From Aradus depressus (lineage: Eukaryota; Arthropoda; Insecta; Hemiptera; Aradidae), in assembly GCA_963662175.1 (NCBI GenBank), contig OY759222.1, forward strand, positions 15,510,222 through 15,574,221: DNA of 64,000 nt, read 5' to 3'. The translations under genes and the position numbers were made by a program. Position 1 is the stretch's first letter; the number at the start of each line of letters is the position of its first letter. Below the pieces are notes generated by a model, which made no database searches, was not told the DNA's origin, and worked only from the letters and a program-made list of their open reading frames with translations. Shown here one piece after another: positions 3,727-50,205 of this stretch.

Positions 3727-3925
3727 AGGTTGTTATATTTATACAATCTTCCGGTTATCCTGATGTGACACCTTATCCCCTAGGGAAGACCAGGTAGGTA
3801 ACCTGAGGTTTGTATAAATATGACAACCTAGCTGATTGAACTGACGATGATGACCTAAGCTAAAACCGGTACACTTTATGTATATATTTTTGTGAAATAA
3901 GACAAAAAAGTTAAAAAAGTCTTTG
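3727..3925 (+). mobile_element. Fold-back element with hammerhead-like motif
   Basis: Short inverted arms (GTTGTTATATTTATACAA against TTGTATAAATATGACAAC) are followed by CTGACGATGATGACC and AAAACCGGTAC. The CTGA.GATG core, a small stem and AA followed by the palindrome ACCGGT match the layout seen in the other fold-back elements here. Degenerate copy: CGAAA has become CTAAA. Confidence 0.5.
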
Positions 3926-4185
3926 TTTTTATTTTAACTATAAAAAAGTGGCTACTGTCCATCACTAATTGGTTATTACTCATAGTAGACAAGTAGTTAT
4001 GTTAAAATTAAACTCAAAAACCAACAAAACATGTCTCAATGAGTTCAACTTAAAAGCCCACTATATATTTTTATTAATATTATTGTTTTTTTCTGTACTG
4101 TTTTTACTTTTCTCAGTCCTTCTCATGTGATCGTATGATAAACAATTCGTAGATTTGTTGTAGTTATTGTTGTTTTTGCGACTAA

Positions 4186-4295
4186 CGTCTGGTCTTTAAC
4201 TACGAGGTCATATCACCACTACCAACGCGCTCTTTCGTCGTTCTGGGGGACAGGAGCCCGATCTACTGAGGGAGTCCTGAATGTTGCCTATCCAG
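4186..4295 (-). mobile_element. SINE-A, 3' fragment
   Basis: Carries the tail-side segment of SINE-A (TTTAACTACGAGGTCATATC, then the GCGCTCTTTCGTC block). The tRNA-like head is absent. Confidence 0.75.
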
Positions 4296-4439
4296 TTTCG
4301 TTACATAGATTAGGTGGCTTTAACCAGGTTTTAAAGTGGGTTTGTTGCAACGGTATGATGTATACTAGTAGGGTATCGGCCGTTGCTCAGCAGTGATGTT
4401 ATCTAGTCAGTAGCTGTGATAAGGCTAATAAGGATGCTG

Positions 4440-4640
4440 GTGAAATTTCTTGAAAATTGTATCAATTATCCGATCAAACGTTAAAGGCATAACCCCCTCA
4501 ACCCATTCTCTCGTTCAAAATTTTGAGATGCCACAGAGCCTATATTTCAAGTTGAACGATACCAGAAAGGTCCTGCATATTTCGTGAATAACATACAGCC
4601 GTTTACCAATGACGCTCAAGGAAACATACACACAGACATA
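4440..4640. repeat. Dispersed repeat, copy 1
   Basis: Shares TTCAAAATTTTGAGAT and TCAAGTTGAACGAT with 7,240-7,425 in the same order, so it belongs to a dispersed, unclassified repeat family. Confidence 0.6.
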
Positions 4641-4964
4641 AATTGAACTGATGATCATTTAAATAACATTGAATTGTTTTTACTCTTTTATTTTCATTTT
4701 ATTTTTTTTACTCCATGAAGGGAAACAATTGTTACTTCACCAGAAAGGACGCCTTTAAACACCAAATTTGGGTGACATTTTCATGAATCACACAATAACT
4801 TCGGAAAAGCTTAAGGAAGCAAGTTGCATTAGGTACCAATTTATTACTAAAACTCTTTAGGACTCCTTTAAATCTAGGAAAATTTTTTAAGCCCTATAGT
4901 AATGTGAAGGAAGAGAACGTACCGCATCTCTCTAGTTATATAAAAAAAATGAAATATTAATTAC

Positions 4965-5140
4965 CTCGGTGTAGGCCCACTCAGGAGAGTAGTCAGTAAT
5001 ATTGGCAGTGCCCTCTCTGTAGTCCATCCTGGGAGGAGAACCACTAGCTCCCTTCTCTGTGTCCATCGTCTCTCCATTGTCTGTACAGCCGCCACCGCTT
5101 GAGTCCCCACCCCCGCCAACACTGCTGCTCCCAAGGCCAC
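4965..5140 (-). CDS. Camta: Camta exon, Gly/Ser linker into TIG domain
   Basis: Fifty-eight codons after a split Gly. A Gly/Ser-rich stretch (SSSVGGGGDSSGGG) is followed by GETMDTEKGASGSPPRMDY and the TIG entry motif ITDYSPEWAYTE. Donor GTAATT, acceptor TTCAG. The frame is intact throughout. Confidence 0.94.
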
Positions 5141-5644
5141 CTGAAATAGACCATCATGAGATTGAGGAGGAGTGACGTTATGAGTTACAGCCAATGGGAA
5201 TTCCTTCCTTCTCCCTTCAACTGCCATCTCTGAAAACAGCAGTATTGTAGAAGTGTTTATTTATTTTTTTATTATTTTTATATTTTCTTTTTTATTATTT
5301 TTATATTTCAGTTTTATATTTTTACTTATTTTTGAACGCTGAGCCTTCTCTTTAACGATCGGGATGCAAGTGCCCATATCTCTTGATACTTTAAAAAAAG
5401 GGAGAAAATAAAAAACCATACAGAAATAAACAACAGAATTATTTTATGAGCGCTCAGCTTCGAATGAAATTTAAAAAAATATTTATACTTTTTTCTTCTT
5501 CTATTTCATTACTTTTTTTTAGAAAAATAGAATTAGTCGCCAGAATTAAATTTATATATGTTTTTAAGTATACTAAATTTGTTTATATGGACAGTAATAG
5601 TTTAACATTCAATGGTATTGGAGGAGAAATAAAAAAAGGTCGTA

Positions 5645-6075
5645 GGTAAATCACCAGCAATGAACTTCCCCAGGACGAATTAAATAATTGACTTTCCGCT
5701 CCCCCTCCGAAACCAGTCGAATATTTGAATTACATAGGGCTCCTAAATCCTCATACTAAATTGTGTGTCGATAAATTCATTACATCGGCAGTTATTAGGA
5801 TTTTTGAGTTAAGCCTCCCCCTTTCCTTTGGCCGATTTGGCTGAAAATGGATAGGTGTTATCGTTAAAGGGTTCTGGATTCACATATAAATAGTCTACAT
5901 ATATTCATTCTATCGGGAGTTATCGTGTTTATAGACAAATACATAAATACACTTTTTTTTTTTTTTTAATTTTTGGAATTGGAGGTCGGAAAACATGAAC
6001 TTCCGTTGAAAACTCCCCAAATTTCGACAGATTACATAACTTCCCCTATACTTCGTGTAGTTGGGGAAGTAACAT
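5645..6075 (+). mobile_element. CTTCCCC-family element, nearly complete
   Basis: Begins with AAATCACCAGCAATGAACTT, a decayed form of the GGTGAATCACCGGCAATGTAC end, and finishes with the terminal hairpin ACTTCCCCTATACTTCG...TTGGGGAAGT. It is inserted in a minus-strand LINE fragment that resumes at 6,076. Confidence 0.85.
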
Positions 6076-6184
6076 GAATTTGTGTTTAATACTCGGATTG
6101 CTCTTTTCTGCAACTTAAAGATCCTTCTCGCGCAGGACACACCTCCCGTAGAACAAAATGTCATCATTATGCTGTGGAAGAGCG
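6076..6184 (-). mobile_element. LINE RT fragment (jockey/CR1-like)
   Basis: The minus-strand translation includes SCARRIFKLQKRAIRVLN, typical of the region after the reverse transcriptase palm in jockey/CR1-type LINEs. It continues beyond the Transib-type insertion at 7,124. Inactive remnant. Confidence 0.75.
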
Positions 6185-6189
6185 CGTTG

Positions 6190-7118
6190 CACAGTGGGAC
6201 AATTCACTAACTTAGCACGAAAAAATTCAAATTATGAAACTCTCACTAGAAAGATGGGAACAATTGGTATTGGTAGTAGACCAGTTGTAGACATTGAACC
6301 CAAGAGGTGGGCCTCGGTTGTTTACAATAAGTGAGCAAAGCCGGCATGTTAACACAGGAACGACACGTAATTATCTTTTCACATCAGTTACATTCTGACA
6401 ATGGTACAGTGCAGTTCATTCAATTTTCAAACCTTAGCTAATATGTCTGATTCAGGAGAAGCTAAGTGAATAAACTATATTGTTTTTTTTTTGCGAAAAT
6501 AGTGCATACATTAATTAAATTCAATGCATAAAGTTGTTTATTGGAAATTTTACATTCTGAAAGCCGCCCAAAAAATTGCAGGCGATTGCATGTCTTCTAC
6601 TTGGCATTTTTCACTTGGTAATTTAGTATTCTAATTGTTGTAAAAGAAGCAGAACCTTAGCTCTCCTTGATTTGATTTTTCCTTTTACAGGAAGTTATAA
6701 TGTAGTGAAGAACGTAGCGGTTCGGGGAAGGGCAGTTGCACTTCAAAAACGATTATCCAACAAAATCGATGAGGAAGCTCTTCCAAGAAAATTGAATAAT
6801 TTAATAAAAAGTGCGGAATTGCGAAAGTATCGTTCTACAAGAAAATATTTCCCGACGGATGTGTTATTGCTGCTAAGAGAACTCAACTTGTAGTTATAAA
6901 CCAACTCATCGGATGATTCATCGTATTATTTTTAAAATTAATATTTTTTTTTTTTCATTTTAATAAACTGCTACTGTACAAGTGCTTATTCATTTTTTTT
7001 ACCCTAATGACACTTATTTCTTAAATTAAATTATTTTCCTATCATATAGATGCTTGTAAAATATGAGAGCTGTACTTTATAATTTTTTCGCTCTAATTAT
7101 GCGTTTTGCCCCACTGTG
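6190..7118. mobile_element. Transib-type DNA transposon, non-autonomous
   Basis: Termini are CACAGTGGGACAA on the left and the complement of CACAGTGGGGCAA on the right, with weaker inverted similarity further in. It is flanked by the 5-bp duplication CGTTG (6,185-6,189 and 7,119-7,123). Transib elements are known for 5-bp CG-rich duplications and termini like the V(D)J heptamer CACAGTG. The inside has only a 73-codon open frame (6,672-6,893) that I do not recognise, and no visible DDE transposase. Confidence 0.8.
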
Positions 7119-7123
7119 CGTTG

Positions 7124-7235
7124 TAGGTCTGACTAAAGAACGGAAAGAGAGAAAGCCGACAACTTCCTGAGCAGAAATTTCCCCGCTTTCCTTTTAAAAT
7201 ATTAAGATCCGAGTGGTCGATGTTTGTTCAGGGCT
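7124..7235 (-). mobile_element. LINE fragment, continuation
   Basis: Continues the LINE remnant interrupted by the Transib-type element; identity is inferred from position and weak coding similarity. Confidence 0.4.
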
Positions 7236-7239
7236 TGTT

Positions 7240-7425
7240 AGGATCGTTAAAATTTCATAAAAATCCGATCAGCCGTTTAAGAGGTCATTCTCCCTCCCCT
7301 TCAAAATTTTGAGATTAAACATAGCTTATATTGTCAAGTTGAACGATCATGAATATATGTTCAGCAGTTCTCCAGTGAAGTTAAAACAACGTTTCAGCAG
7401 TTTCCCATGAATAACTAACGAGTCA
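7240..7425. repeat. Dispersed repeat, copy 2
   Basis: Second copy of the repeat at 4,440-4,640, sharing TTCAAAATTTTGAGAT and TCAAGTTGAACGAT. Confidence 0.6.
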
Positions 7426-7464
7426 AGGATATCGGAAGAAACAATAAAAAAAAAAAAAGATTAC

Positions 7465-7625
7465 CACTGTGATGCTGATCAAGGCCGTCCAAATCAGGAA
7501 ATTCGGAGAGCATGTCGAATGCATCCAAATTGAGGAAGACATCATCATCATGAGGAATGGCATTGACGTCAATAAACTCTATCTCAGACAGAACTCCGGA
7601 GGAAGGCTGCTTCACTGCGTGCTCT
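7465..7625 (-). CDS. Camta: Camta exon, acidic putative activation region
   Basis: Fifty-three codons between split codons. The peptide is strongly acidic and hydrophobic: SEIEFIDVNAIPHDDD, then LDAFDMLSEFPDLDGLD. The spacing of Phe/Leu among Asp/Glu is typical of transcription activation domains, so I infer that role. A CTTCCCC-family repeat and a Transib-type element lie within 1.5 kb downstream in the next intron. Confidence 0.92.
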
Positions 7626-7762
7626 CTAGAAGACCTGAATCACACCAAGGATATATATATATATATGAAAATATATAACAAACACAAATTCTAATTAAAT
7701 TGTTTAATTATTTAATAGTAAACGTTTTTTCTGAAATATTGTCTATTTTACTAGTTAGTTAT

Positions 7763-8024
7763 TATGACTCATGCCCGGGCTTTAACTACGAGGTCATATC
7801 GCCGACTAGCAGAGCGCTCTTTCGTCACTCTGGTGGACATGAGCCCGACTCTACTGTGGGAGTCCTAAATTTTGCCCCCTAACCTTGAGCAGGCCATCGC
7901 TTAACGTCCCATCCGAAGGACGGCGTGCTTAAGTTTATTTTACGTCCCAGATAAAATAAACTAAGGGCCTCGATCTTGAGCTCAGAAGGCAAGCACGCAT
8001 ACAACTGAGCTACCGGCGCCCTCT
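7763..8024 (-). mobile_element. SINE-A, nearly full length
   Basis: Reading the minus strand, it starts GAGGGCGCCGGTAGCTCAG (tRNA-like A box), has lost the B box, and ends GCCCGGGCATGAGTCATA. The middle carries the CGTCCTTCGGATGGGACGTT domain. Confidence 0.92.
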
Positions 8025-8034
8025 CTATTTTACT

Positions 8035-8095
8035 TATATATACATCATATATATGGGAATACTTCCGGTATTGCTATTATCTTCAGCCAAGATTT
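8035..8095 (-). mobile_element. Solo hammerhead-like fragment, 17-kb type
   Basis: The minus strand reads GGCTGAAGATAATAGCAATA then CCGGAAGTATTCCC, a diverged copy of the motif in the arms of the 16,951-17,194 hairpin. Confidence 0.6.
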
Positions 8096-8590
8096 GACAA
8101 ATACTAAATGGAAGTTCACATTCCGAACTGTCCCTTCTCCAGTCCTCATGGGGTTTTTCCCTGCTCCTTTTTCCCATACGAAAAAAATTAAAATATTTGG
8201 GATATCATAAGGTCAATTAAGTGATGTTTATTGTCCTTTTACTATTACTATTAAGTTCCGACTGCTCTCAAATCAGGACATACTTCCTACATCAAAAATA
8301 TTTAAATTAATTTTACTAAAACATTCAATTCAATAGATCAGCTACCAGGATCCATAGAAATTAGAAAAAAAAATTGAACGTTTCGCAAGCATTACAGAGA
8401 GTTTCGGCGACAAAAAAAGATTTTGATAAGGAAAGTTGCAATGTAAAGTTTATCAAAAAGAGACAAGAAAAAAAATGAATTACATTCTATGATAGGTAAA
8501 TGATAAGGGTTGAACCTAAACTGATCCCTAACAGTTAAGTCCTCTTGACTGACTAGTCTACAGTTAAACTTAGTTTGTGTAAGTACAAAC

Positions 8591-8805: not shown

Positions 8806-8913
8806 CTGGAAGTGATAATTAAAAATATTAAAAGAAATAAAAAAAGATAAGAAAAATACGAGTATAAAATAAAGAAGTTACGAAATTTATTGTAAAACAG
8901 AGAGATGATGTAC

Positions 8914-13755: not shown

Positions 13756-14330
13756 ACTAAATATAGCCACCAATAACTTTTTTGAGCTCTGCCGGGTATA
13801 TTCTCCATTGAAAGTGCTTTTCTCTGTATTAGTATTCCGATGTATGAATACATTTCTGCGATCTATTGTTGACATAGTGGAAACAGTATAACATGTCATA
13901 GCAACCAACTAAATAAATTTAGTTGAACACAAAATATAACATTTTTCTAATAACATTCATACAAAATATTAAGTAGGTCTACTGAAAAATACATTATCAA
14001 ACAAGGAATGGGTCTCGACTAACAAAGAAATTCAGATTAAAAGAAGAGACATTCCTTAATTGGTAAATAGTTTCTTGCGTAGGAATACCAAATTGTTCAA
14101 AACTTTTTGGCGTACCATTAGTGGTACCATAGCTCAGTTTGGAAACCGCTGGTTCAGATAAGGAATTGTGCAAATTGACTACAATAGGACATTAGGACGC
14201 TAACGAGAAAGAAGAAAAAAAAATATGATAAGCTATATTTCGAACTCGTGAAAATTGATTTTATTATATATGTATCTTCAATTTCGTATCATATATACGA
14301 TTGTTTGAGACCTCTTAAGTTTTTATTTTT

Positions 14331-14767
14331 AGGTAGGTATTTCAATAATTACCATCTTATAGCCCTTTTTGGTCTCAACTATTCTTTTTTTCTTTATTTT
14401 TTCTTCTTAATTTCCTACAACAAAAATATTTCGTCCTACCAGGACATTTTCAAGTACATCACTGAAAAAATATTACATTCACAATAACGTTCACATCTAA
14501 ACAAGCTAGCTATACTGTAAAATTCTTTTGTACGTTTTACTTACATTTTTATTTTAATATAATAAAGATACAAAAGAATTATACAATATAGCTAGCTTGT
14601 TTAGATGTGAACATTATTGTGAATGTAATATTTTTTCACTGATGTAGTTGAAAATGTCCTGGTAGGACGAAATATTGTTGTTGTAATAAATGAAGAAGAA
14701 AAAATAAAGAAAAAGAATAAATGAGACCAAAAAGGGCTATAAGATGGTAATTATTGAAATACCTACA
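14331..14767. mobile_element. Fold-back element with hammerhead-like arms
   Basis: Two arms of about 190 bp are inverted around an AT-rich loop near 14,545. In the arms, reading inward, TTGAAAATGTCCTGGTAGGA is followed by CGAAATATT. This is the CTGANGATG-stem-CGAA-palindrome layout of the other fold-backs, with stem GTCC/GGAC and palindrome AATATT; the core G8 position is A here. Confidence 0.8.
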
Positions 14768-14800
14768 TAAAAATTATATATTTTCGTATTTTATTTAGTT

Positions 14801-15011
14801 ATATGACTCATCCCCGGGCTTTTACTAGTAAGGTCATATCGCCTACTACCAGAGCGCTCTTTCGTCACTCTGGTCGACATGAGCCCGACTCTACTGTGGG
14901 AGTCTTAAATTTTGCTTATCCTAAATTTTTATTCACCTAGGGTAGGGGTCTTTAACGAGTACCTGACATAGTACATGTTTGGGACCATTGCTTAACGTCC
15001 CATCCGAAGGA
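14801..15011 (-). mobile_element. SINE-A, 3' part
   Basis: Minus-strand copy with the tail block, the GTAGGGGTCTTTAACGAG segment and the start of the CATCCGAAGGAC domain. Its tRNA head is missing. Confidence 0.88.
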
Positions 15012-15088
15012 CTTTCCTTTTCGTATTTTATATGAAATGATAAACATATTCAAAAGATAATAAATAATAAAGAAAAAACATTACTTAC

Positions 15089-16950: not shown

Positions 16951-17194
16951 TGGACTTGAAAAATAAAATAAAACTTGTTTATTTAATATATTGTCTAATT
17001 TAACTAACTATATATACATGGGAGTACTTTCGGTATTTCTACCATCCTCAGCCAAAAGCATAAGAGATTTAGTCTTATCTCTTATGCTTTTGGCTGAGGA
17101 TGGTAGAAATACCGAAAGTACTCCCATGTATATATAGTTAGTGAAATTAGACAATATATTAAATAAACAAGTTTTATTTTATTTTTCAAGTCCA
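16951..17194. mobile_element. Near-perfect hairpin with hammerhead-like arms
   Basis: Arms of about 118 bp (16,951-17,068 and 17,077-17,194) separated by an 8-base loop. Each arm carries GGCTGAGGATGGTAGAAATA followed by CCGAAAGTACTCCC: core CTGAGGATG, stem GGTA/TACC, then GAA and the palindrome AGTACT. The arm sequence match is almost complete, so the inversion is recent or maintained. It sits in the intron just downstream of the CIYGCY exon. Confidence 0.95.
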
Positions 17195-19592: not shown

Positions 19593-20132
19593 ACATACAT
19601 ATATGAGAGATTTTTTGAGTAATTTAATTCTCAAAAGACATTTTCCTATTTACATGGGTACGAAACATTAGAGTCCAAAAAGCTTTAGGACATTTTGAAC
19701 AATTGCTTCAAACGTGCGTTAGTTTTACTGAAGATATTTTCAAGAATCACTGTACATTTTTGTTTAACAATACTATTTTTGATTGAAGATTTATTCCATT
19801 TTCTATATTATATATTTATTATTTTTTCTTTTCGAAGAAATTCATGAAGCTTTTCATTCTCTCTTCTTTCGTTAGATTTGTTATAGTAATGCAGAAAAGT
19901 AAAATATTTTAAAGGAAAAACCAACAGGCAAGGTAAACCTTAGAAATAAAAAGACAATAGCTAAGATCGTAACTACACAAATTGAGACAATTCTTAAAAA
20001 GCGCTATCGTTAATAGCTGAAAAAACACTACACTTCTAAGGCTGGTTAACTCATGACTTATCTAATGTAAAAAACATTATGGACCTGTCTGAAAAGTACT
20101 CGTACGTCGTCAGAAATACTTATTCCTTATTC

Positions 20133-20558
20133 AATAATATGAAGATGGCTGATGTAGTGAGAAGTGATTATATCGCAGGATGTCAAAAATAAGGTAGTCT
20201 GACCTCTCACAGATTTTTTATTTAAGTAAGCTAGCCGGCTTTCGAGGTTTCCCTCATCATCAGGCAGTCTACAAAGAACCATCCTTAATATGTAATATAA
20301 ATAGCAAATAAATAATTAAAAACACAATTTTTGATAAAACATACCTGATAATTTTTTTTTTTTTTTTTTTTTTAATTTTTTATCAGGTATGTTTTATCAA
20401 AAATTGTGTTTTTAATTATTTATTTGCTATTTATATTACATATTAAGGATGGTTCTTTTGTAGACTGCCTGATGATGAGGGAAACCTCGAAAGCCGGCTA
20501 GCTTACTTAAATAAAAAATCTGTGAGATGTCAGACTACCTTATTTTTGACATCCTGCG
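20133..20558. mobile_element. Penelope-like fold-back with hammerhead-like arms and 13-bp TSD
   Basis: Flanked by the exact duplication TTATTCCTTATTC (20,120-20,132 and 20,559-20,571). A left-only segment of about 40 bp (20,133-20,173) is followed by two inverted arms of about 178 bp around a T-rich loop at 20,352-20,379. Each arm contains CTGATGATGAGGGAAACCTC then GAAAGCCGGCTAG: core, 4-bp stem with GAAA loop, GAA, and the palindrome AGCCGGCT. A one-sided extension of 30-40 bp is a described feature of Penelope-like elements. No reverse transcriptase or GIY-YIG gene is present in this copy. Confidence 0.8.
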
Positions 20559-20668
20559 TTATTCCTTATTCCAATATTATTTCTGTCATTTCACTTTTCA
20601 AAAAATCTAGTTTCATAATTAGAAATTAAAAACACATCGAGAGACCTAAAGTTAGAATAAAAAACATT

Positions 20669-22371: not shown

Positions 22372-22480
22372 TTATTTCACAGGGTGTAAAATACAAACGT
22401 AGTCTAACCTCTCACAGAATTAATTAAATGTGTTAGCCAGCTTTCGACGTTGCCCCATCATCAGACTGTCAGAATTCCAG
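22372..22480 (-). mobile_element. Fragment of the 20-kb fold-back family
   Basis: The minus strand reads GTCTGATGATGGGGCAACGT then CGAAAGCTGGCTAA, and the segment also has the CTCACAGA phrase of the 20.1- and 49.9-kb copies. The palindrome is AGCTGGCT, one base from AGCCGGCT. It ends within 70 bp of a Camta CG-1 exon. Confidence 0.75.
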
Positions 22481-23062: not shown

Positions 23063-23440
23063 GGAATTATTATTACATTCTAATAAGATGAACTAATTTC
23101 TGAACTGATGTTTGTTTATTTAACAAAATTATTACTAATAGCATGAGAACAATAATATAATTAAGATAAAATTATTATATTCTAACAAGATAAACTAATT
23201 TCTGAACTGATGTTTCTTTATTTAACAAAATGATTACTAATAGCATAAGAACAATAATATAATTAAAGATAAAATTATTACATTCTAATAAGATAAACTA
23301 ATTTCTGAACTGATGTTTGTTTATTTAACAAAATGATTACTAATAGCATGAGAACAATAATATAATTAAAGATAAAATTATTAAATTCTAACAAGATAAA
23401 CTAATTTCTGAACTGTTGTTTGTTTATTTAACAAAATAAT
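23063..23440. repeat. Tandem repeat, about 103-bp unit, 3.6 copies
   Basis: Repeated unit containing AACTAATTTCTGAACTGATG and TTTATTTAACAAAATNATTA. Units differ at a few positions. An inverted copy of the unit lies at 23,630-23,700. Confidence 0.92.
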
Positions 23441-23629
23441 TACTAATTTCAGTTTAAAATAACTAAACGAGTAAGGATATAAATTAAAATTATTACAAAA
23501 TTTAAAAAAAAAAAAAATTGTATTTTTATTTTGCTATAATTTTAATGTATATTTTCATTATTATTCAATTAGTTATTTTAAAGATAAGAAAAACTTCAGA
23601 TTTTAATTGTATTAATGTTCTCAATGTAG

Positions 23630-23705
23630 TAGTAATCATTTTGTTAAATAGACAAACATCAGTTCAGAAATTAGTTTATCTTGTTAGAATGTAATAATTT
23701 TAGTT
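23630..23705. repeat. Inverted copy of the 103-bp unit
   Basis: Reads AATCATTTTGTTAAATAGAC then CATCAGTTCAGAAATTAGTT, the complement of the tandem unit at 23.1-23.4 kb. Confidence 0.85.
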
Positions 23706-24469
23706 TTACACGTGATATAACGTGAAAAAAAGAAACAAATTCCTAACAGTAAGAAGATTTCCTAGTTGAAAATCCAACCCTGAAGTACCTATATGTAAGA
23801 TTCACCTAAAGAAACTGTCTTAGTATATGTGTAATGTCAAAAATTATAGTTTATGTTTAAATTTCTTGTGAAGAAGACAATTTTTTTAAAATAAGAATTT
23901 GAACGACACCCCAGTGTTCAGGGGAACATGTTTCATAAAAATATGGAAGTAGTCTCTGTTTTACCAACCGAGAGAGCACATAAGCTGTTTCCTGTATAGA
24001 AATTCGCTGTCCTTATTCAGTCCGTCTTACCCCTTCCACTGTCTGTTTGGCTAAGTCTCCCTCCCCCACTGTTGTCTTCCTCTATACTATTCTCCTCCTG
24101 TCCCAAGTTTTATGCCTTTGTTTGTAGTTCTGGCAGACACCCCCTCTTCTCCCCCGGTTCTATGTCTTTAAGAATGTCCGGAACTGCCCCCACAACCCAA
24201 AGCTGACCACACAACTGTTGTGTAAGGACACAGAAAATTTCCCAACAGTTTACCACAACTTCCTTTTTTATTATTTTTTTTTTTTTTGTCACATGAGGAA
24301 TACGAATTTCAAAGCGGAATCGTTTTAAAAGATGTCGCCCCATTTATGAAAACAAGCCAAGCATTTTGATAAATCATTCTTATTTTACCAACAATTTCTA
24401 TCAGAATAACCATGCTTATATAGAAATATATTTTTTCCTCTGAGCTCGGATGAAATGAAAAATAAAAGT

Positions 24470-27973: not shown

Positions 27974-28316
27974 TATAGGTTAGGTTAGGTTTTATGACTC
28001 ATGCCCGGGCTTTAACGACGAGGTCATATCGCCTACTACCAGAGCGCTCTTTTGTCACTCTGGTGGACATGAGCCCGACTCTATTGTGGGAGTCCTAAAT
28101 TTTGCCTAGCCTAAATTCTTATTCACCTAGGGTAGGGGTCTTTAACGAGTTCCTGACATCGTACAGGCTCGGAACCATCGCTTAACGTCCTATCAGAAGG
28201 ACGGCGTGCTTAAGTTTATTTTACCTCCCAGATAAAATAAACAAAGGGCCTCAGCCGGGTTTCGAACCCGCGAACTAGAGCTCAGTAAGCTAGCACGCAT
28301 ACCATTGAACTACCGT
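27974..28316 (-). mobile_element. SINE-A, full length with AACCT tail
   Basis: Complete minus-strand copy. The tail, read on the plus strand, is GGTTAGGTTAGGTTTT followed by ATGACTCATGCCCGGGC. The B box GGTTCGAAACC and the CCGTCCTTCTGATAGGACGT domain are intact. The A-box end (28,300-28,316) is slightly decayed and abuts a CT microsatellite. Confidence 0.9.
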
Positions 28317-28340
28317 CTTTCTCTCTCTCTCTCTCTCTCT
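28317..28340. repeat. CT microsatellite
   Basis: About 11 CT units next to the SINE head. Confidence 0.9.
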
Positions 28341-29589: not shown

Positions 29590-30206
29590 ATTGTAGGAAT
29601 ATTAAGGGTCAGTCAAAGATGGAAGAAAACACTATTCAAAGGCCAACGTTTCGATATATTTTATATCATCATCAGGGCCTACAAACATGAGGGGGAATCA
29701 AGATTAGAATCACAATTAAACAAAATTAGTGTGTTGATAAACATTGCTGAACGTTAAAATAGACATTGTAACAAGTTAAAAATTGAAACTGACTTACTAT
29801 GAATACATTACTAAACATTAAAATTAAATATAGATACATTGTTAACCATAAACATGAACGTACACTAATACAAATTAAAATTAAATATGAATACATTACT
29901 AAACATTAAAATTAAATATAGATACATTGTTAACCATAAACATGAACGTACACTAATACAAATTAAAATTACATATGAATACATTACTAAACATAAACAT
30001 TGATAATCATGGAAATAGACAAATAGGTGGAACATAATAAAGAGTAAAAATTAAACTGACTTACTATGAATAAGAATAAGCATTGTGATTCTAATCTTGA
30101 TTCCCCCCCATGTTTGTAGGCCCTGATGATGATATAAAATATATCGAAACGTTGGCGTTTGAATAGTGTTTTCTTCCATCTTTGACTTACCTTCAATATT
30201 CCTACA
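29590..30206. mobile_element. Large fold-back with hammerhead-like arms
   Basis: Arms of about 135 bp (29,590-29,728 and 30,070-30,206). In each, reading inward, AGGCCCTGATGATGATATAA is followed by a TATATC stem strand, GAAACGTT and, in the left arm, GGCCT. The CTGATGA core is bounded by AGGCC, which pairs with the GGCCT that follows GAAACGTT; this gives hammerhead stem I. Stem II is GATATA/TATATC and stem III would be the ACGT palindrome. The right arm has GGCG instead of GGCC. A tandem repeat fills the middle. No protein gene is seen. Confidence 0.85.
29797..29996. repeat. Tandem repeat, about 88-bp unit, 2.3 copies
   Basis: Two nearly identical units containing TTGTTAACCATAAACATGAA and CGTACACTAATACAAATTAA, inside the fold-back element. 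Confidence 0.9.
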
Positions 30207-31150
30207 ATATTTTTTTCTCATTGTTCAAAAATAATAAAATAACCATAATTAAAAAGCTAATATTGACAACTTATTATTAATAAATGAAGTAAGAGCTACC
30301 ATAGAAACCATGTTGTTAATGACTAACGACAATTTAGGCGAACTACACCCTCCACCCCCTAGGTTCTAAAAGTACCTAATGAAAAATATATAATTATTCT
30401 GGCTGGGGATCTGATAGAGTATAAGAGTATGACAAACAGGAGAAAAATATATATAAAATATTTAAGAGAGGGTTAGAGGAAAAGGAAGAGACTGACGAGG
30501 GTTGACAGCTCAATCTGACGGCTATTTTGTTAAATAAACCTCACAACTTGTGACTCCAGTCAACTTTTTGACCTCAATTTCCACTCCTATACATTATTTA
30601 CACTACAACTTCGGCTAATTATTGTTTCTTCAAAGTCCCCTTTTTGATGCTTCATGAAAATTTTATCACTTTAATTATATTCGATTTTGCCTATTATGCT
30701 TTCGTATGAAGACAGTAAGAGAGTCTACAACTAGTTCACAAATATTTTAAACATTTTCAGTCAGATATCTTTAAAACGTGTCGGATGCTCAAATTTGTAC
30801 AAGAAAACAGAATTTTACCGAAACCCCATTATAATCGTCTCAAATTCGAGGTTATTATATATAAACTTGTTTGTAGAAAATTATATATATATATATATAT
30901 ACATTAAAATATATTTTTTTGAACACTCAAACCAAATACACGAAAATTGAATCATATTTATTCATGTAAGGAATAAAGTATTTTTATTACCTTTTTACAA
31001 CTCAATGAAATATAAAAAAATTATTATATTTCCGATATATGTACTAACATATTTTTTTTTTTACCTGGAAGGTAGGCAGTGATGGTTCACTCCCACTATC
31101 AGTCACCCTCTTCTCACTTATTACTTTTAGATATTATATAAGAATAAAAT
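30207..31150. other. Intron, no recognised element
   Basis: AT-rich, with a TA microsatellite at about 30,880-30,902. Nothing else is recognised before the CG-1 exon. Confidence 0.5.
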
Positions 31151-34189: not shown

Positions 34190-34345
34190 AAAAAATTAAG
34201 GAACGATAAAACTTAAGTATTTTTTTAAATATTATCTAATATCTACTATCGGTTTCGGCATTACACCATCATCAGCTTTAGTTATAAACTAAGCTTGCTG
34301 AGTGCGAACCATTCTTATACAGTAAGGAAATGGGTAGGAATATCA
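34190..34345 (-). mobile_element. Hammerhead-like element, 34-kb type
   Basis: The minus strand reads AAAGCTGATGATGGTGTAAT then GCCGAAACCGATAG: core, GG(T)/(G)CC stem, GAA, and ACCGAT, one base from the palindrome ACCGGT seen at 3.87 kb. A diverged inverted partner lies at 35,605-35,760. Confidence 0.75.
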
Positions 34346-37026: not shown

Positions 37027-37314
37027 AGGGCGCCGGTAGCTCAGTAGTATGCGTGATTTCTTATTGAGCTCCAGATCGCGGCTTCAAAACCCGGCCGGAT
37101 GGGACGTTAAGCAATGGTCCCAACCTGTACGACATCAGGTACTCGAAAAAGTCCCCCAACCCTAGGTGAATAAATATTTAGGGAGGACAAAATATAAGAC
37201 TCTCATAGTCGAGTCGAGTTCATTTCCACCAAAGCGACGAAGGAGAGCTCTGGTAGTAGGCGACATGACCTTGTTGATAAAGTCCGATCATGAGTCACAA
37301 TAACTAACTATAGT
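37027..37314 (+). mobile_element. SINE-A, internal deletion
   Basis: Head GGGCGCCGGTAGCTCAGTAG, then a deletion joining the B-box side to GGATGGGACGTTAAGCAATG. Tail ends CATGAGTCACAATAACTAAC. Confidence 0.88.
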
Positions 37315-37398
37315 TTAGGTTATTGGAGAAGATTTTGAAATTACAAGGACATCCTTCATCCACCGTATAAATATATATGTATATGTAGGTGGTATATA

Positions 37399-37731
37399 GA
37401 GGGCGCCGGGAGCTCAGTGGTATGCGTGCTTGGTTTCTGAGCTCAAGAACGTGGGTTCGAAACCCGACCGAGGCCCTTAGTTTATTTTATCTGGGAGGTA
37501 AAATAAACTTAACCACGCCATACTTCGAATGGTACGTTAAGCGATGGTCCCGAGCCTGTACGATGTCAGGTACTCGTTAAAGACCCCTGCCCTAGATGAA
37601 TAAAAACTTAGGGTAGCCAAAATTTAGGACTCCCATAGTAGGAGTCGGGCTTATGTCCATCAAAGTGACGAAAGAGCGCTCTGGTAGTAGGCGATAAGAC
37701 CTCGTCGTTAAAGCCCGGGTATGAGACATAA
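37399..37731 (+). mobile_element. SINE-A, full length
   Basis: Intact A box, B box (GGTTCGAAACCCGACC), linker AGTTTATTTTATCTGGGAGG, central domain and tail CCCGGGTATGAGACATAA. Confidence 0.93.
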
Positions 37732-39539: not shown

Positions 39540-40097
39540 TAGGGTGGTCGTAAAAAGTTCGATTTTTCAAAGTCCCCATCCAAATTCTTGTGTAGTTTGA
39601 CGAAAAAAAATGGGGTTTTTGAACATTTACATATTTTTAAGTGTAGGTCTTAGTATTTTTAATATAAAAATCTAAAAATACATGGATTATGGGTTTTCGG
39701 GGTCGCTGAAAACGAATTTATATTAAAAAAATTTTTTTGACAGTCACATTTCCCAAAAAACTCGTACAAAAATTGACGAAAATGATAAAAATTTTCGAAT
39801 CGATGATTCATTTTAATTAATTATTAATTTTTTAATATGAAATTCGTTTTCAGCGACCCCGAAAACCCATAATCCATGTATTTTTAGATTTTTATACTAA
39901 AAATACTAAGACCTACACTTAAAAATATGTAAATGTTCAAAAACCCCATTTAAAACACGTGTTAAACTTTGACAGGGCCATGTTAATTCATTCAAAAAAA
40001 TCTGAAAAAATTCACAAAATTTTTTTTTGTCAAACTACACAAGAATTTGGATGGGGACTTTGAAAAATAGAACTTTTTACTTTTTACGATCACCCTA
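39540..40097. mobile_element. hAT-type MITE, long TIRs, 8-bp TSD
   Basis: Ends TAGGGTGGTCGTAAAAAGTT and the inverse ACTTTTTACGATCACCCTA. Inverted similarity extends about 180 bp inward. It is flanked by the exact 8-bp duplication ATACACAA (39,532-39,539 and 40,098-40,105). Duplication size and TAGGG-type ends point to the hAT superfamily. No transposase. Confidence 0.92.
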
Positions 40098-40738: not shown

Positions 40739-41871
40739 AAGCCTGGATTACAGGGAACAGATAGATAGATAGATAAAGATGTTTATTTAGTAAAGATAAA
40801 TACAGAAAAGTAAACCAAAAAAAAATTTAAAAACAGTACATCATTAGACAATGGTCCTTAGACCGTCTGTCGGGTTGGACATGTCCTCTCTCCTTGCTTG
40901 TTAGTGGAGTTAGTTTTTATTTTTAATTGTAAAAATAAAGTAAAGAAAATTGTCATGTTACTAACTTAAATCAAATATAATGAAATATATTTATACATAA
41001 AATAACTATAATTGTATAAAAAATAATATATTATAGAGTTTCCCTTGCTTCTAGAATCGCTAACGTTATTATAAAACAGTGTAGCGATAGTAGGGAGATG
41101 GTCCGAATACATTTCCAAACCCACTTCAAAATCTTTGACTAGAGATAGGCAACCTGAGGACACAGCGCAAATATCTATCGTTGAGTGGCCCATTTTACCC
41201 AAAAATGTTAGTTCTCCATCTACATCGCTCGGGGTCCTCCCGTTTAAAATTACCAGGTCATGATCCTCGAGTAGTTCCAGAAGCTCTGTCCTTACAGGGA
41301 ACAGTAAACTCGCTACTAGCCAGTTTTTGAAAAAGCCGAGATAGTTAGCGAGTAGCTAGTAAAAAAGATTTTGCAATAACACGCAACTAGTGAAGAAGCT
41401 GGGCAGTGAGAAGGATTCAATCCCAAATTTCATTTTTCAGTGTTTCTACTACTTTTGTATCCCTTTTTATCGAGGCAGCCGCATCTAATGATTTTCGTCT
41501 GTCTATCCATTTTTTCACCCATTCTCTTTTTAACTTCTCTTTTAATAAACAATTCACAAGCACCACTCCAGCACCAACTACTTCGTCTAATTCGACCGAC
41601 ATTTTTCAACTGAAAATCCTATGTCACAAACACTCTCTTCCTTTTCGCACAACTTTTATCTGATTACACGGAACGAGTTTACTTTCCAGCCAACAAACTC
41701 GCCAGCCAGTAGCTTGTAAAGTCGACGGGTGTTCAACATTGCTCGCTCAGCTTTTAACGAGTGAATTAACGAGCTAGTTTACTAGCCACGCCAATTACAC
41801 TTAGCTTTTTTACTAGCAGCTAGTGAATTAACGGGCTAGTAGCCAGTAAACTATCCCTGTGTAATCCAGAC
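40739..41871. mobile_element. Harbinger-type DNA element inside a SINE
   Basis: Ends AAGCCTGGATTACAGGGA and, inverted, GTCTGGATTACACAGGGATA. It is flanked by TTA (40,736-40,738 and 41,872-41,874). A TTA duplication suggests PIF/Harbinger. Inside, repeats of a GTAAACT...GCTAGTAG module fill both ends. It is itself split by a LINE at 40,761-41,291. Residual 85-codon frames at 41.4-41.66 kb are unassigned. Confidence 0.75.
40761..41291 (-). mobile_element. 5'-truncated LINE, endonuclease fragment, 13-bp TSD
   Basis: Flanked by the exact duplication TTACAGGGAACAG (40,748-40,760 and 41,292-41,304). The minus strand encodes GRTPSDVDGELTFLGKMGHS and TIDICAVS, then DFEVGLEMYSDHLPT, the GR.S..D.TF and SDH blocks of the LINE endonuclease. 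Translation then degrades into an AT-rich tail ending in a GATA-type microsatellite, typical of LINE 3' ends. Since endonuclease joins the tail directly, the reverse transcriptase is deleted. Confidence 0.88.
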
Positions 41872-42683: not shown

Positions 42684-42776
42684 CTGTGAACAAGGTAAGG
42701 AAAATTAGTGGGAAATATCAACTCATATTCATTTTCAGGGGACTTTAATTAAAGGGTACTTGAAATCTACCCCTGA

Positions 42777-43124
42777 GAGGGCGCCGGTAGCTCAGTGGTA
42801 TGCGTGCTTGACTTCTGAGCTCAAGGTCGTGGGTTCGTAGCCCGACCGAGGCCCTTAGTTTATTTTATCTGGGAGGTTAAATAAACTTAAGCACGCCGTC
42901 CTTCGGATGGGACGTTAAGCGATGGTCCCGAGCCTGTACGATGTCAGGTACTCGTTAAAGACCCCTACCCTAGATGAATAAAAATTTAGGGTAGGCAAAA
43001 TTTAGGACTCCCACAGTAGAGTCGGGCTCATGTCCACCAGAGTGACGAAAGAGCGCTCTGGTAGTAGGCGATATGACCTCGTAGTTAAAGCCCGGGCATG
43101 AGTCATAAAACCTAACCTAAACCT
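42777..43124 (+). mobile_element. SINE-A reference copy, young
   Basis: Complete 348-bp copy with the exact 14-bp duplication AAATCTACCCCTGA (42,763-42,776 and 43,125-43,138). In order: GGGCGCCGGTAGCTCAGTGG (A box), GGGTTCGTAGCCC (B box), linker, CGTCCTTCGGATGGGACGTT domain, a body ending GCCCGGGCATGAGTCATA, and tail AAAACCTAACCTAAACCT. It lies 94 bp upstream of the Camta exon that opens CG-1, antisense to the gene. Confidence 0.97.
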
Positions 43125-44015: not shown

Positions 44016-44039
44016 ACCGCCCAATTTAGTTAACTTAGA

Positions 44040-45290: not shown

Positions 45291-45395
45291 AATCTGTTGA
45301 GAAGATATATAATATAACTATTTGGAATTCTTTTCAAGATTTAGGATTTTTGTTAATTTTTAGATAAATGTTATTTGGTAGAATCTAATGGTGAA

Positions 45396-45690
45396 GAGCC
45401 GGTAACTCAGTGGTATGAGTGCTTGTCTATTGAGCTCAAGCCAAGGTCCTTAGTTTATTTTATCTGGGAAATAAAATAAACTTAAGCACGCCGTCCTTCG
45501 GATTGGACGTTAAGCGATGGTCCCGAGCTTCTAATATGTCAAGTACTCGTTAAAAACACCTACCCTAGGTGAATAAAAATTTAGGTTAGGCAAAATTTAG
45601 GACTCCCATGGTAGAGTCAAGCTCATGTCCACCAGAGTGGGCGATATGACCTTGTAGTTAAAGCCCGGGCATGAGTCATAATAACTAGCT
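45396..45690 (+). mobile_element. SINE-A, B box deleted
   Basis: Head GAGCCGGTAACTCAGTGGTA, then a direct jump to CCAAGGTCCTTAGTTTATTT. The rest is close to consensus, with a small deletion near the end. Confidence 0.9.
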
Positions 45691-45782
45691 CTAATGTTAA
45701 ACATTTTTTAAACAAAAAAAAAATCTCTCAAATTGAAGATGCAGAAAAACGCCGTTCAAGTTATTTTAAGGTACCTACATTT

Positions 45783-45895
45783 TTATTTATTATTATTTTT
45801 TGTGGCCTTATGAACTTGCTCATTAGCCATGACAATACTGGGGTTACCGGTTATTAAGGTACTATAATATCTATGGCCCCGGGTGGAAGTTATAT
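45783..45895 (-). mobile_element. SINE-B, 3' part
   Basis: Resembles the tail of SINE-B on the minus strand: GCCTTATGAACTTGCTCATT with TATCTATGGCCCCGGGT. Confidence 0.55.
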
Positions 45896-46638
45896 CTGTG
45901 AAATAAAACTCTTGCCCGCCTGTTAACGTCTCGTCAGTTGGATTTTTTTTAGACTCGAGACGTCTGTATAGAAAAAATAAAAGCAAAAAAGAGATTTTAT
46001 ATAAAGTAGGAAAAATAGAGCTGCAAGGAAAAAATACGAAGTTATTTAAGTTGTAAATTTCATAGTTTTTATTCCTTAATTTATGAAAATTTCCAAAAGT
46101 TAAAAAAAAAAATCTAATCTTCATTTCCATCAGGATGATAATAGCTTGGAGGGCGATCCAATAAACTTGACTAAGGTCAGACTAGGGGGAGATGGAGGGG
46201 AGAGGGGGGGGGGGGGATAATGAGGCGGATATCTGGGGAGGGGGGCGGTCTACAGGAGCAAAAGGGGCAGGGTTAGATGCCGGAGGTAATACATAGAGAA
46301 GAGCATGCATATGCAACAGATCCACTAGCCTATCTATGTCCCACATCAAAGGGATGGTCAGTCGGCTGAGTGGTTAGACAGACTGATCAAAATACTAATA
46401 TGTCAGAGGTCAACTGATATGGAAGTTCAGAGTTAATGGTGGCAAACTGTGGATAGACCAGGAAACCCTTTCTTTACAACAGAAGAATGATTAGTTTCCA
46501 GAGGCAAAAAGTATTATACACCCAATTAAATTATTGTGTATTTTCATTATAATAGTTGAAGACGCCGCGGTGACTTTCATATAACCAGTAATGCTAGTAT
46601 GATATGAATTTCAGAGCGAGAGGGTGAATTGTGAATTG

Positions 46639-46742
46639 AGAGGGCGCCGGTAGCTCAGTGGTATGCGTGCTTGATTACTGAGCTCAAGATCGCGGGTTCG
46701 TAACCCAGCCGAGGCCTTTAGTTTATTTTATCTGGGAAGTAA
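46639..46742 (+). mobile_element. SINE-A, left piece
   Basis: AGGGCGCCGGTAGCTCAGTG, B box GGGTTCGTAACCC, up to TATCTGGGAAGTAA, where SINE-B is inserted. Confidence 0.92.
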
Positions 46743-46977
46743 GGGAGCCATAGTGGCCGTGCGAGCGTAGGGCTTTGGTTGCATGGTCTCACCCATGGCT
46801 TGCGGGTTCGAATCCCGTCCGGGAGTGAGTTTTATTTCGTACATAGAACTCCCTCCCGGGGCCATGGATGTCATAAAAATTACTAAATAACACATAGATG
46901 GCTAGTGTGGTGTTTGCCAAGACCAATTAAATAATAATAATAATAAAAAAAATAAAAATAAAATTTAAAAAAAAAAC
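46743..46977 (+). mobile_element. SINE-B inserted in SINE-A
   Basis: A different tRNA-derived SINE. A-box region AGTGGCCGTGCGAGCGTAGG, long variable arm, B box GGTTCGAATCCCGTCC, a body with CTCCCTCCCGGGGCCATGGA, and an AATAAT/A-rich tail. Flanked by CTGGGAAGTAA and CTGGGAGGTAA (46,732-46,742; 46,978-46,988), an 11-bp duplication with one difference. The long variable arm suggests a Leu- or Ser-type tRNA origin. Confidence 0.9.
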
Positions 46978-47207
46978 CTGGGAGGTAAAATAAACTTAAG
47001 CATGCCACCTTTCAGATGGGACGTTAAGAGATGGTGCCGAGCCTGTACGATCTCATGTACTCGTTGAAGACCCCTCCCTACCCTGGGTGAATAAAAATTT
47101 AGGGTAGGCAAAATTTAGGACTCTCATAGTAGAGTCGGGCTCATGTCCACCAGAGTGACGAAAGAGCGCTCTGGTAGTAGGCGATATGACCTCCTAGTTA
47201 AAGCCCT
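46978..47207 (+). mobile_element. SINE-A, right piece
   Basis: Continues from GGGAGGTAAAATAAACTTAA through the central domain to GACCTCCTAGTTAAAGCCC. The final tail is lost. Confidence 0.9.
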
Positions 47208-47249
47208 CATATATACATATTAAATATACATATACCTATATATTTTACT

Positions 47250-47795
47250 TCCCCAGCTATACGAAGTATAGGGAAGATTATGTAATCGATCGAAATTCGA
47301 AGCGGAGTTTTCAACGGAATTTCATGTTTTCCAACGATCTGATTCCAAAAATGAGAAAAAAAGTCTATGTGTGTCTGTTAACACGATAATTCCCCATAGA
47401 ATGAATAAACTGACACAACATTTTATTTGTGTACCCAGAACTCTTTAAGGGCGAAACCTATTCATTTTCAGCTAAATCGGTAAAAGGGAAGAGAGGATTA
47501 GGGGGAAGATCAACTCAAAAATCCCAATAACTGCCAACGTAATAAAAGTATCGACACGAAATTTTATATTTAAATTGAAAACCCCATAAGAATAGCACCT
47601 ATTAATATTCTGTGAAATCGGTCGAAAGAAAGCGGGGGACCAGAGAAGGGGGTCGACACAAATACCCTGATAACTGCCGTAGGATGTAATGAATGTATCG
47701 ACCCACAATTTAGTATTGGATTCAGAAGCCAATATGTAAGTCAAATATTGAGTTTTAGCTCAAACGGTCGATTTGCATAGGAGCGAGAGCGATCC
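47250..47795 (-). mobile_element. CTTCCCC-family element, longest copy
   Basis: Minus orientation, from TTTTACTTCCCCAGCTATAC to CATAGGAGCGAGAGCG. About 545 bp with three internal modules of the form AACTGC...GTATCGAC. The terminal hairpin GCTATACGAAGTATAG is well preserved. Confidence 0.88.
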
Positions 47796-48177
47796 GACCA
47801 CTTTTTTCATTTGATAGTATGATATGTTGGTTATATGCTTTTAAAATAGGGAGGAGCATTAAGAGCATTAAAGTAGCTGATTCCTTTATGAGTTATACTT
47901 TTTTCAAAAAGAGAGGAACAATGTGAAGAAGACTAGTGCATTTGAGCATAATACATTAGTGAAGTAAGTTTAAGTCCTATAAAGTATACTTGGGGTCTCA
48001 TAAATAAAGTACAACAATGTATGAGATACAGTTTGTTTGTGAAGTATGTGCACCTCTACAATATAACTAGTAGAAACACGATACAGTACTCATTACAAGG
48101 TCATTTGTTTACTTCCAAGTAACTACTACTCAACTAGTTTTTAGCCATATAGGACTTAGATATATTGAGAAGGCATG

Positions 48178-48345
48178 CATACACCTAGGGACCTAAGCAT
48201 ACAATGTTCTAATCCCTCCTCTGTTACCTCTATTGTGGGAGTCATATTTGCCCACCCAAGTTTAGTTATCTAAGGGTGGTCATTTAACGAGTGAGTATCT
48301 TGGCTCAGTAGGCTAACCCACATGAGCGACCGGCGCACTCTCATA
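48178..48345 (-). mobile_element. SINE-A variant, tandem copy 1
   Basis: First of three adjacent minus-strand copies sharing CACCTAGGGACCTAAGCA and GAGCGACCGGCGCACTCTCA, each beginning with a GGGCTTAGATATATTGGGAA flank. Confidence 0.75.
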
Positions 48346-48540
48346 TTGGGCTTAGATATATTGGGAAGGCTGGTGTGCACCAAGGGACCTAAGCACCCAA
48401 TGTTTTTATCCCTTCCCAGTTAGTCCTACTGTTGGAGTCCTAAATGTTGCCTACACAGTTTTAGTAGGGGATCCTTTAACGAGTAACATGGGCTTAATAG
48501 GCTACCCCTTTACATCTGAGCTACCGACGCTCCTCATATC
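48346..48540 (-). mobile_element. SINE-A variant, tandem copy 2
   Basis: Starts GGGCTTAGATATATTGGGAA, contains AGGGACCTAAGCACCCAATG and ends with the head CTACCGACGCTCCTCAT. In direct tandem with its neighbours. Confidence 0.78.
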
Positions 48541-48603
48541 GGGCTTACGATATATTGGGAAGGCTGGTGAGTACACCTAAGGACCTGAGCCCCCAATGCT
48601 TTT
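48541..48603 (-). mobile_element. SINE-A variant, tandem copy 3, left piece
   Basis: Starts GGGCTTACGATATATTGGGA and breaks off after CCCCCAATGCTTTT where the 48.6-kb element is inserted. Confidence 0.75.
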
Positions 48604-49217
48604 TTGACGTGAAAACGTCTATTCGCTCGTTAAGCACAGTGATAGCCGGTCAAACTTTCTTGTGTTACAAAATACCGTCAGATTTCAATCGATAATAACT
48701 ACGAGACTAATAATGCGATAACAACGGTTGAGGTCCCAATGGATAGAGCATGTCTGTACGTGTTTGTTGTGCAGTGTTTGTTTTGCCTGTGACGTTATCG
48801 GGCTAGTGTGGGCGCCGGCGGATGATTGTTGCGAATTAGCGGTGTAAAATTAGATATTAGTGTAGCGTAATAACGCCTTTAAATAGGACGTTGATTCGGG
48901 TGTCATTGTAAAGAGCTTGAGGAGCACTACAAGGGCTCAAAGTGAAACAATAAAAATATTCGCCGAAATATATGTAAAAATCTGTATTAAATTGAAAATT
49001 GCAAAAAAAATTAAAGATGTCTCATAATAGTAAGTATGCGCGGAGTTATAGAAAACGCAAATCAGAGGAAAGCTCGCATCAAAAGGAATTTTAAAAACCT
49101 AAAATGTCTAGTGTCGAGCAAATGCAAGAGCTACGACATCATCCAAAAAAAATGAAAAATGATTTTATCCCGACGTTTTCACGGAAAATCTACGGTGTGG
49201 ATCTTGACTACGCCTTA
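48604..49217 (+). mobile_element. Unclassified insertion, TTTTTTGACGTG type
   Basis: Interrupts the third tandem SINE copy. It starts TTGACGTGAAAACGTCTATT and has an inverted CGTGAAAACGTC near 49,180. After a 410-bp leader it encodes MSHNSKYARSYRKRKSEESS and, one stop later, MSSVEQMQELRHHPKKMKND, a basic N-terminus of the kind found in several transposon proteins. The rest of the protein is absent. No duplication was identified. Confidence 0.5.
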
Positions 49218-49372
49218 ATTTTTTATCCCTTCCCAGTTAGCTGTACTGTGGGAGTCCTAAATTTTGCCTACACAGGTTTAGTAGAGTGTCCTTTAGGGAG
49301 TAACATGGGCTTAGTAGGCAACCTCTTTACCTCTGAGCTACCGACGTCCCCTCATAAAGGGCCTAGTATATT
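49218..49372 (-). mobile_element. SINE-A variant, tandem copy 3, right piece
   Basis: Resumes at TTATCCCTTCCCAGTTAG and runs to the head CTGAGCTACCGACGTCCCCT. Confidence 0.75.
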
Positions 49373-49799
49373 CCTATATTAGTAGTACATCTCTTCGAAG
49401 AAAAGTTAGTAACGTGCCAATAACGATGAAATTCCGGTGAAAAGTTACATACATTTTGATAGCAGTTTCCTCAAGTCAGTCTGTATTAAACGGCCCGTTA
49501 ACATGTCACAAAATGTCTCCATATAGTATTAAGAAAAGTTTCAAGAGCTTTGAATATGTATTGTGTGGGGTGGATAAGGCCTGTTACCTGTCACAGCTCT
49601 TCATGTGAGTAGCAGTGAAGCTGTCACATCTAACTTCACTTCCACCCCGAGTTAAGCAGCCGAGACAACCTGACGTATAACTAACAAAGACTAACAGAAT
49701 TAGTGATAATAGGGAAAGTTGTTGGAAAACACCAACAGACACAACATTAAAAGTAGATATAGACCACAATACAGATTTTTTAAGAAAATTCTATAAATC

Positions 49800-49830
49800 A
49801 TAACAATGTACTTCCCCAGAATGAAATAAA
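49800..49830 (+). mobile_element. CTTCCCC-family end fragment
   Basis: Only AACAATGTACTTCCCCAGAA remains before the fold-back element. Confidence 0.5.
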
Positions 49831-49844
49831 TAATAAAATATAGT

Positions 49845-50205
49845 ATGACCTCTCACAGATTTTTATTAGAAGTAGCTAGCCGGCTTTCGAGGTTTCACTC
49901 ATCATCAGGCAGTCTGATAAAAAATTAAAAAACATTTTGAATGAAAACTAAATAATATATAATAAAAATAAATAAATAAAACAATCTAAAAACTAAAATA
50001 TCATGGATGGGGACAGACGAGTTATTCCTGTCCACCATCTGAGTCACAACTGGGAGAACGGAGTACATAAGACTCTGAGAGTGTATGAGGGAAACCTCGA
50101 AAGCCGGCTAGCTACTTCTAATAAAAATCTGTGAGAGTTCATACCATATTTTATTTCACAACCTGTGAAATAATCACTTCTCACTACATCAGCCATCTTC
50201 ATATT
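49845..50205. mobile_element. Fold-back of the 20-kb family, second copy
   Basis: Left arm on the minus strand reads CAGACTGCCTGATGATGAGT then GAAACCTCGAAAGCCGGC. The right arm keeps GAGGGAAACCTCGAAAGCCG but has lost the CTGATG core. The one-sided 40-bp extension (ATCACTTCTCACTACATCAG) seen left of the 20.1-kb copy lies on the right here, so this copy is inverted relative to it. Confidence 0.82.

Follow-up and report, generated by a model that had tools for sequence, protein, structure and literature searches.

The window analysed here is a 64,000-nucleotide stretch of contig OY759222.1 from Aradus depressus (GCA_963662175.1). It contains elements of six families (3.8 kb; 14.5 kb; A at 17 kb; B at 20, 22 and 50 kb; C at 30 kb; D at 34 kb) that are mostly fold-backs and share a hammerhead-ribozyme-like motif, and the host as a whole has about eleven hammerhead families. 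In our reading, which we hold with high confidence, these elements are insertions of several families of host Penelope-like elements (PLEs), most of them short and many inserted head-to-head, and each arm carries a minimal type I hammerhead. In RNA order the motif consists of one strand of stem I, CUGANGA, an extra base, the stem II hairpin, GAA, an A..U palindrome, position H17 and the other strand of stem I. Apart from the base added ahead of stem II, this is a minimal type I hammerhead. The features of the window are given below, where E values refer to a model (R1) built from eight host sequences, none of them from the window and with other copies of family D among them.

3837..3873 (+): decayed hammerhead of the common CTGACGATGGCGTAAGCCGAAACCGGTACAC family with a ruined stem II, inside a weak fold-back (inverted match 70% over 114 nt); E 0.056
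8052..8089 (-): decayed family A hammerhead, single copy, read from the sequence
14325..14774: fold-back of the U3-A8 family, whose core has 100 exact copies in the genome
about 14646-14679 (+) and 14422-14455 (-): hammerhead-like cores of the U3-A8 family
16951..17194: family A fold-back, arms of 118 nt, 99% complementary and 8 nt apart
17091..17126 (+): family A hammerhead, UGG-CUGAGGA-U-GGUA(GAAA)UACC-GAA-AGUACU-C-CCA; E 0.0028
17019-17054 (-): mirror copy of the family A hammerhead
20120..20132 (+) and 20559-20571: left and right copies of the 13-bp target site duplication TTATTCCTTATTC of a family B insertion
20133..20558: head-to-head insertion of a family B PLE whose tails extend 97 and 58 nt beyond the cleavage site
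20467..20502 (+): family B hammerhead, GC-CUGAUGA-U-GAGG(GAAA)CCUC-GAA-AGCCGGCU-A-GC
20230-20265 (-): mirror copy of the family B hammerhead
22430..22466 (-): decayed family B hammerhead, single copy
29590..30208: family C fold-back, arms of 127 nt
30119..30157 (+): family C hammerhead, GCC-CUGAUGA-U-GAUAUA(AAA)UAUAUC-GAA-ACGU-U-GGC
29641-29679 (-): mirror copy of the family C hammerhead, stem I GGCC/GGCC (E 0.001 and 8e-5 for the family C copies)
34243..34279 (-): decayed family D hammerhead, single copy; E 1e-6; the family is located in PLEs elsewhere in the host (L053, L056, L087)
49830..50207: family B head-to-head insertion
49875-49910 (-) and near 50085-50112 (+): family B hammerhead and its decayed partner
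49822-49829 and 50208-50215: 8-bp repeat TGAAATAA flanking the insertion at 49830..50207
50866..50896 (+): decayed hammerhead of the common family, absent from the initial annotation; E 0.0015

The motif is real and far above chance. Ten matches to the pattern CTGANGATG-N4-20-CGAA lie in the window, where shuffles give 0.08 on average, and the complete layout (core, up to one extra base, stem II, GAA, A..T palindrome, H17 and a stem I of at least 2 bp) was found at seven sites against none in 200 dinucleotide shuffles, with criteria that were set after the motif had been seen. The seven sites belong to family A at 17.1 kb, family B at 20.2-20.5 and 49.9 kb and family C at 29.7-30.1 kb, and decayed copies exist at 3.8, 8.1, 22.5, 34.3 and 50.9 kb. 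It turned out that the initial annotation was right in seeing a hammerhead-like motif common to several fold-back families. Its count of at least six families sharing the layout stands in so far as six are present, while stem II of the 3.8-kb copy is ruined and the copies at 22 and 34 kb are single and decayed.

To compare the stems, one hand-picked representative was taken for each of ten families from the window and from host loci. Stem I, which the initial annotation did not mention, was found here and reads GUG/CAC, UGG/CCA, GC/GC, GCC/GGC (twice), GAC/GUU (twice), UAC/GUA, CAC/GUG and AUA/UGU. Generally, the inner pairs are kept although the letters change (stem I, 29 of 30; stem II, 30 of 30), so the earlier statement that stem II sequences differ yet stay paired holds across all ten families, and the absence of covariation, which had been named as a possible refutation, was not what we found. 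None of 20,000 partner shuffles paired as well, a figure that overstates the independence of the families since some are related in their flanks. Stem III is represented only by an intermolecular palindrome, an A..U segment, in nine of the ten families; its region begins with A and ends with U in all ten. The base that follows (H17) is C, A or U and, as had been noted before, never G. The sole family without a palindrome has ACAU in stem III (L038 and L149-L151), and its stem II reaches 7 bp in L149-L151. The R1 model finds the window copies of families D, C and A at E 1e-6 to 3e-3. The hammerhead reading is thus supported by the covariation of stems I and II, the palindromic A..U stem III and H17, and also by the matches of the host-built model and the location of families B and D in PLEs. 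On grounds of conservation, catalysis is likely.

A less expected feature is the extra base before stem II, which is nearly fixed. The host assembly comprises 698 Mb in 74 contigs. A loose pattern, CTGANGAN10CGAA, occurs 4,271 times in it and its backward control 445 times. The strict motif with the extra base has 14,171 matches in total, of which 11,923 come from CTGANGANGGN{7,14}CCGAAAC (backward control, 2) and 2,248 from its shorter-loop form (backward control, 0), while the layout without the extra base has only 67 (control, 1), and many of these 67 can be read with G as the extra base. Among 200 matches listed for the strict motif, U is the usual extra base; the GGAAA/UUUCC family and some few others have A, and single copies have C. 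The initial annotation had noted an extra U in every family.

The family at 14.3-14.8 kb, with stem II GTCC/GGAC, has UUGAAAA in place of CUGANGA. Its exact core occurs 100 times in the host, and a search with positions 3 and 8 left free gave 257 matches, with A at position 8 in 99 of the 100 listed. Twenty loci were picked for variety of the loop and of position 7, with position 3 unseen; U3-A8 was found in 18 of them, A3-A8 in one and G3-G8 in the last, which is unrelated. Position 7, which is variable in hammerheads, is A, U or G in this family. AUAU forms stem III in 17 of the 18 U3-A8 copies, which had not been selected on these letters, and G is absent from H17 in 16. Stem I was tallied over 38 copies, the other 20 of which came from a search demanding UUGAAAA, AUAU and H17 = U, and it has two pairs in 20, three in 5, four in 11 and fewer in 2. 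Since C3 pairs with G8 in the active fold and natural U3-A8 covariation is known from several hammerheads (PMC3088659), we read the 14.5-kb family as a lineage of hammerheads in which the core pair C3-G8 has been exchanged for U3-A8 by a compensated change, not as a failure of the motif. As to the initial annotation, this family has TTGAAAA and no CTGANGA; the palindrome given there, AATATT, is replaced by ATAT in the register of stem III, with H17 = T.

Families B and D are PLEs. For the GIY-YIG domain (PF01541), 1,852 candidates were found in the host, and all 150 that were scored exceed the cut-off. Among 30 GIY-YIG loci returned, 25 have a hammerhead of family B or D in the 3.2 kb of sequence retrieved and 5 do not, and both open reading frames (ORFs) examined, L079 of family B and L087 of family D, have RVT_1 and GIY-YIG above the cut-off. 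Family B forms 2,819-bp tandem units. In these the hammerhead lies between consecutive ORFs, separated from the preceding stop codon by about 145 nt on its 5' side and from the earliest potential start of the following ORF by about 295 nt on its 3' side. The motif at 20467..20502 is also found 3' of such a reverse transcriptase (RT)/GIY-YIG ORF, and named homologues of the B protein are mostly from insects (120 of 279 listed). Because the B and D motifs lie 3' of an RT/GIY-YIG ORF, their elements in the window are taken as PLE insertions, often head-to-head. Only in family B and the common family did we see tandem or inverted pseudo-long terminal repeats (pLTRs), an optional tail and a target duplication. 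Presumably A, C and U3-A8 are PLE families as well, and family A shares flanking tail letters with the common family. The arrangement of animal-type retrozymes (150-450 bp non-coding tandem repeats with a type I hammerhead) was not found, with no same-strand neighbours below 1 kb among the 100 places listed first for each of two patterns. Two exact motif patterns had no match in the viral collection. When related proteins were sought, 19 loci came up in genome_contigs and one in viral_contigs; only L169 among them looked PLE-like, and it lacks the hammerhead layout.

The orientation of neighbouring motifs is strongly biased. In the same two sets of 100 places, 22 and 24 neighbours below 1 kb are divergent (46 in total) and none is convergent. 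Past the cleavage site, one long tail (82-104 nt) and one short tail (37-67 nt) were found in 19 of 20 fold-backs, and the remaining one has two short tails; the probability of 19 mixed pairs under independence is 2e-5. The sample comprises 20 of the 23 divergent pairs from one pattern's first 100 listed places, and tail lengths are alignment ends with a long/short cut of 80 chosen by us. Family B itself has one long and one short tail. Places without a listed partner have 16 long tails among the 40 fetched (of 54). The target duplications of the family B insertions in the window differ in length (13 bp and 8 bp), others were read by eye in L009, L011 and L013, and the 5' extents of the arms vary while their 3' ends fall into two classes. 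Besides, L085 holds two divergent pairs that mirror each other and show no difference between their arms over the compared region; it is a fold-back that has itself been duplicated, on a larger scale, in inverted orientation.

The arrangement probably arises as follows. Each arm carries the 3' (pLTR) region of an element with its minimal type I hammerhead, in which stem I is short, stem II has a small loop, U or A is added after CUGANGA and stem III is an A..U palindrome. With stem III so reduced, cleavage would need two copies paired through it, either tandem units or two RNAs. Both strands of the target would prime cDNA from the 3' region of the RNA, one from a long-tail start and the other from a short-tail start, and the two cDNAs would meet head to head and give the fold-back shape. 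A further, conjectural reading, which we regard as improbable, makes the palindromic stem III a dimerisation site of the RNA first and a ribozyme part second: two joined template RNAs would enter one integration complex, each target strand would prime on its own RNA at the long-tail or the short-tail site and so produce head-to-head insertions, and the extra base at 9-10.1, with a core assisted by protein, would hold cleavage back until integration. If that were true, the U3-A8 lineage would offer a natural experiment on the core pair under such conditions.

Several observations weigh against insertion by PLEs with working hammerheads. The Rfam hammerhead models have no match in the window at gathering scores nor at E up to 10, which is one of the three outcomes that the initial annotation had named as speaking against it, and Rfam scans of the window and nine loci gave only microRNA, small nucleolar RNA and one small RNA model, none above the gathering score; we infer that the failure is owed to the extra base and the missing stem III. 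The R1 model finds family B only at E 3.6, probably due to its 8-nt palindrome. This model does not find the 14.5-kb U3-A8 family either, and folding of monomers and two-strand dimers did not discriminate. Linkage to an ORF is established for families B and D, not for A, C, the common or the U3-A8 family, and one convergent neighbour appears if the limit is widened to 3 kb. Processing of templates by the ribozyme would lead one to expect that the 5' ends of insertions cluster at the cleavage site. By eye, however, no homology in 85 arms starts exactly there; about six start within 10 nt, the nearest (L131) two bases before it, and in one arm of L055 the homology begins with the third base beyond it. 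There is no sharp peak, though microhomology could blur one. A fold-back transcript would also pair its own arms and hide the ribozyme. In the PAc Poseidon element of Anolis, insertion in vitro was unaffected by ribozyme mutants, cleavage was not observed in the absence of protein, and RT started alike on both strands, while the host copies here suggest otherwise (PMC11167929).

Part of this would be accounted for if the motif were kept for another reason, such as a structure for protein binding or RT initiation or for RNA dimerisation, with the ribozyme vestigial. The independence of PAc insertion from cleavage, the lack of a sharp peak of 5' ends at the cleavage site and the weak stem I (2-5 bp) point that way, but the catalytic core is constant while the stems change, the core pair 3-8 is preserved by a double change and H17 stays C, U or A in ten families, and we consider this unlikely. 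Somewhat more credible, yet still the weaker option beside two priming events, is that one cDNA primes on itself (snap-back), as proposed for rotifer Penelope (PMC3846280). It would explain the palindromic centres of the fold-backs and the excess of near-private changes among arm differences (67 of 143, against 374 of 1,836 in random pairs). The tails, on the other hand, are systematically unlike, and both arms are nearer another locus in 12 of 30 pairs, a count which comes from few differences and includes L085 twice. The long inverted arms, and the want of an ORF link for families A and C, could also suggest DNA elements with terminal inverted repeats (miniature inverted-repeat transposable elements) that carry the motif by coincidence. 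This is hardly tenable given that families B and D are 3' regions of PLEs, that target duplications vary in length and that variable 5' extents go with two classes of 3' ends.

Other repeats were also found in the window. A dispersed family whose members measure at most about 350 bp and lie in either orientation (27974-28325, 42775-43120, 54287-54612, 14814-15012, 37154-37641, 45444-45639 and 7729-7876) is tRNA-like at one end by eye and is probably a short interspersed nuclear element. A 530-bp fold-back at 39550-40080 has no hammerhead motif that we could see, 23069-23708 is a 103-bp tandem array followed by inverted copies of the same unit, and 52012-52353 holds 8 copies of a 43-bp unit with 91% matches. 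Two ORF fragments belong to non-LTR (long terminal repeat) retrotransposons, one at 40966-41355 (-) with a weak match to Exo_endo_phos_2 below the cut-off and one at 56698-57063 (+) without a Pfam match, which looks RNase H-like by eye.

Hammerheads in PLEs, dimer cleavage, inverted pLTRs and tails have already been published, so the core of our claim is largely known. What appears new to us is the nearly fixed extra base, the U3-A8 lineage with its extra U, and the pattern of one long and one short tail. One viroid hammerhead reportedly has an extra residue in its natural catalytic core, a single viroid compared with more than 14,000 repeat copies here. In the parts of the PLE literature surveyed, which did not include Cervera and De la Pena 2014 and Lunse 2017, there was no mention of an extra base, U3-A8 or such tails. 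The minimal type I hammerheads of PLEs (Cervera and De la Pena 2014; Lunse et al. 2017, via PMC7761336, PMC6155905 and PMC6466107) resemble ours in their location in the pLTR, very short stem III, presumed action as dimers and many dispersed copies in animal genomes, and differ in the nearly fixed extra base and the U3-A8 lineage found here; a 2020 review calls their activity in vivo and role "still a mystery" (PMC7761336). Penelope of Adineta vaga likewise has head-to-head inverted pLTRs, one of which may bear a 31-bp tail, and its target duplications measure 8-10 bp (PMC3846280), but self-priming on an antisense template is the explanation proposed there, whereas here one tail of each class occurs in 19 of 20 fold-backs. 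In PAc two RT start sites bound a tail of 30-40 bp and both strands are cut and extended, and its hammerhead lies at the junction of pLTR and ORF; the ORF starts within the hammerhead there, while the family B hammerhead lies between ORFs (PMC11167929). The tails of the host copies point to a strand-specific start of reverse transcription, which is testable with purified protein. The core-variant hammerheads share the C3-G8 to U3-A8 covariation and, in repeat-type motifs, a palindromic stem III (PMC3088659), and the lineage described here differs from them in being retroelement-like and having the extra U as well. A single genome with about eleven families, thousands of copies, an extra base and a compensated core pair is thus a ready comparative set beside these known systems.

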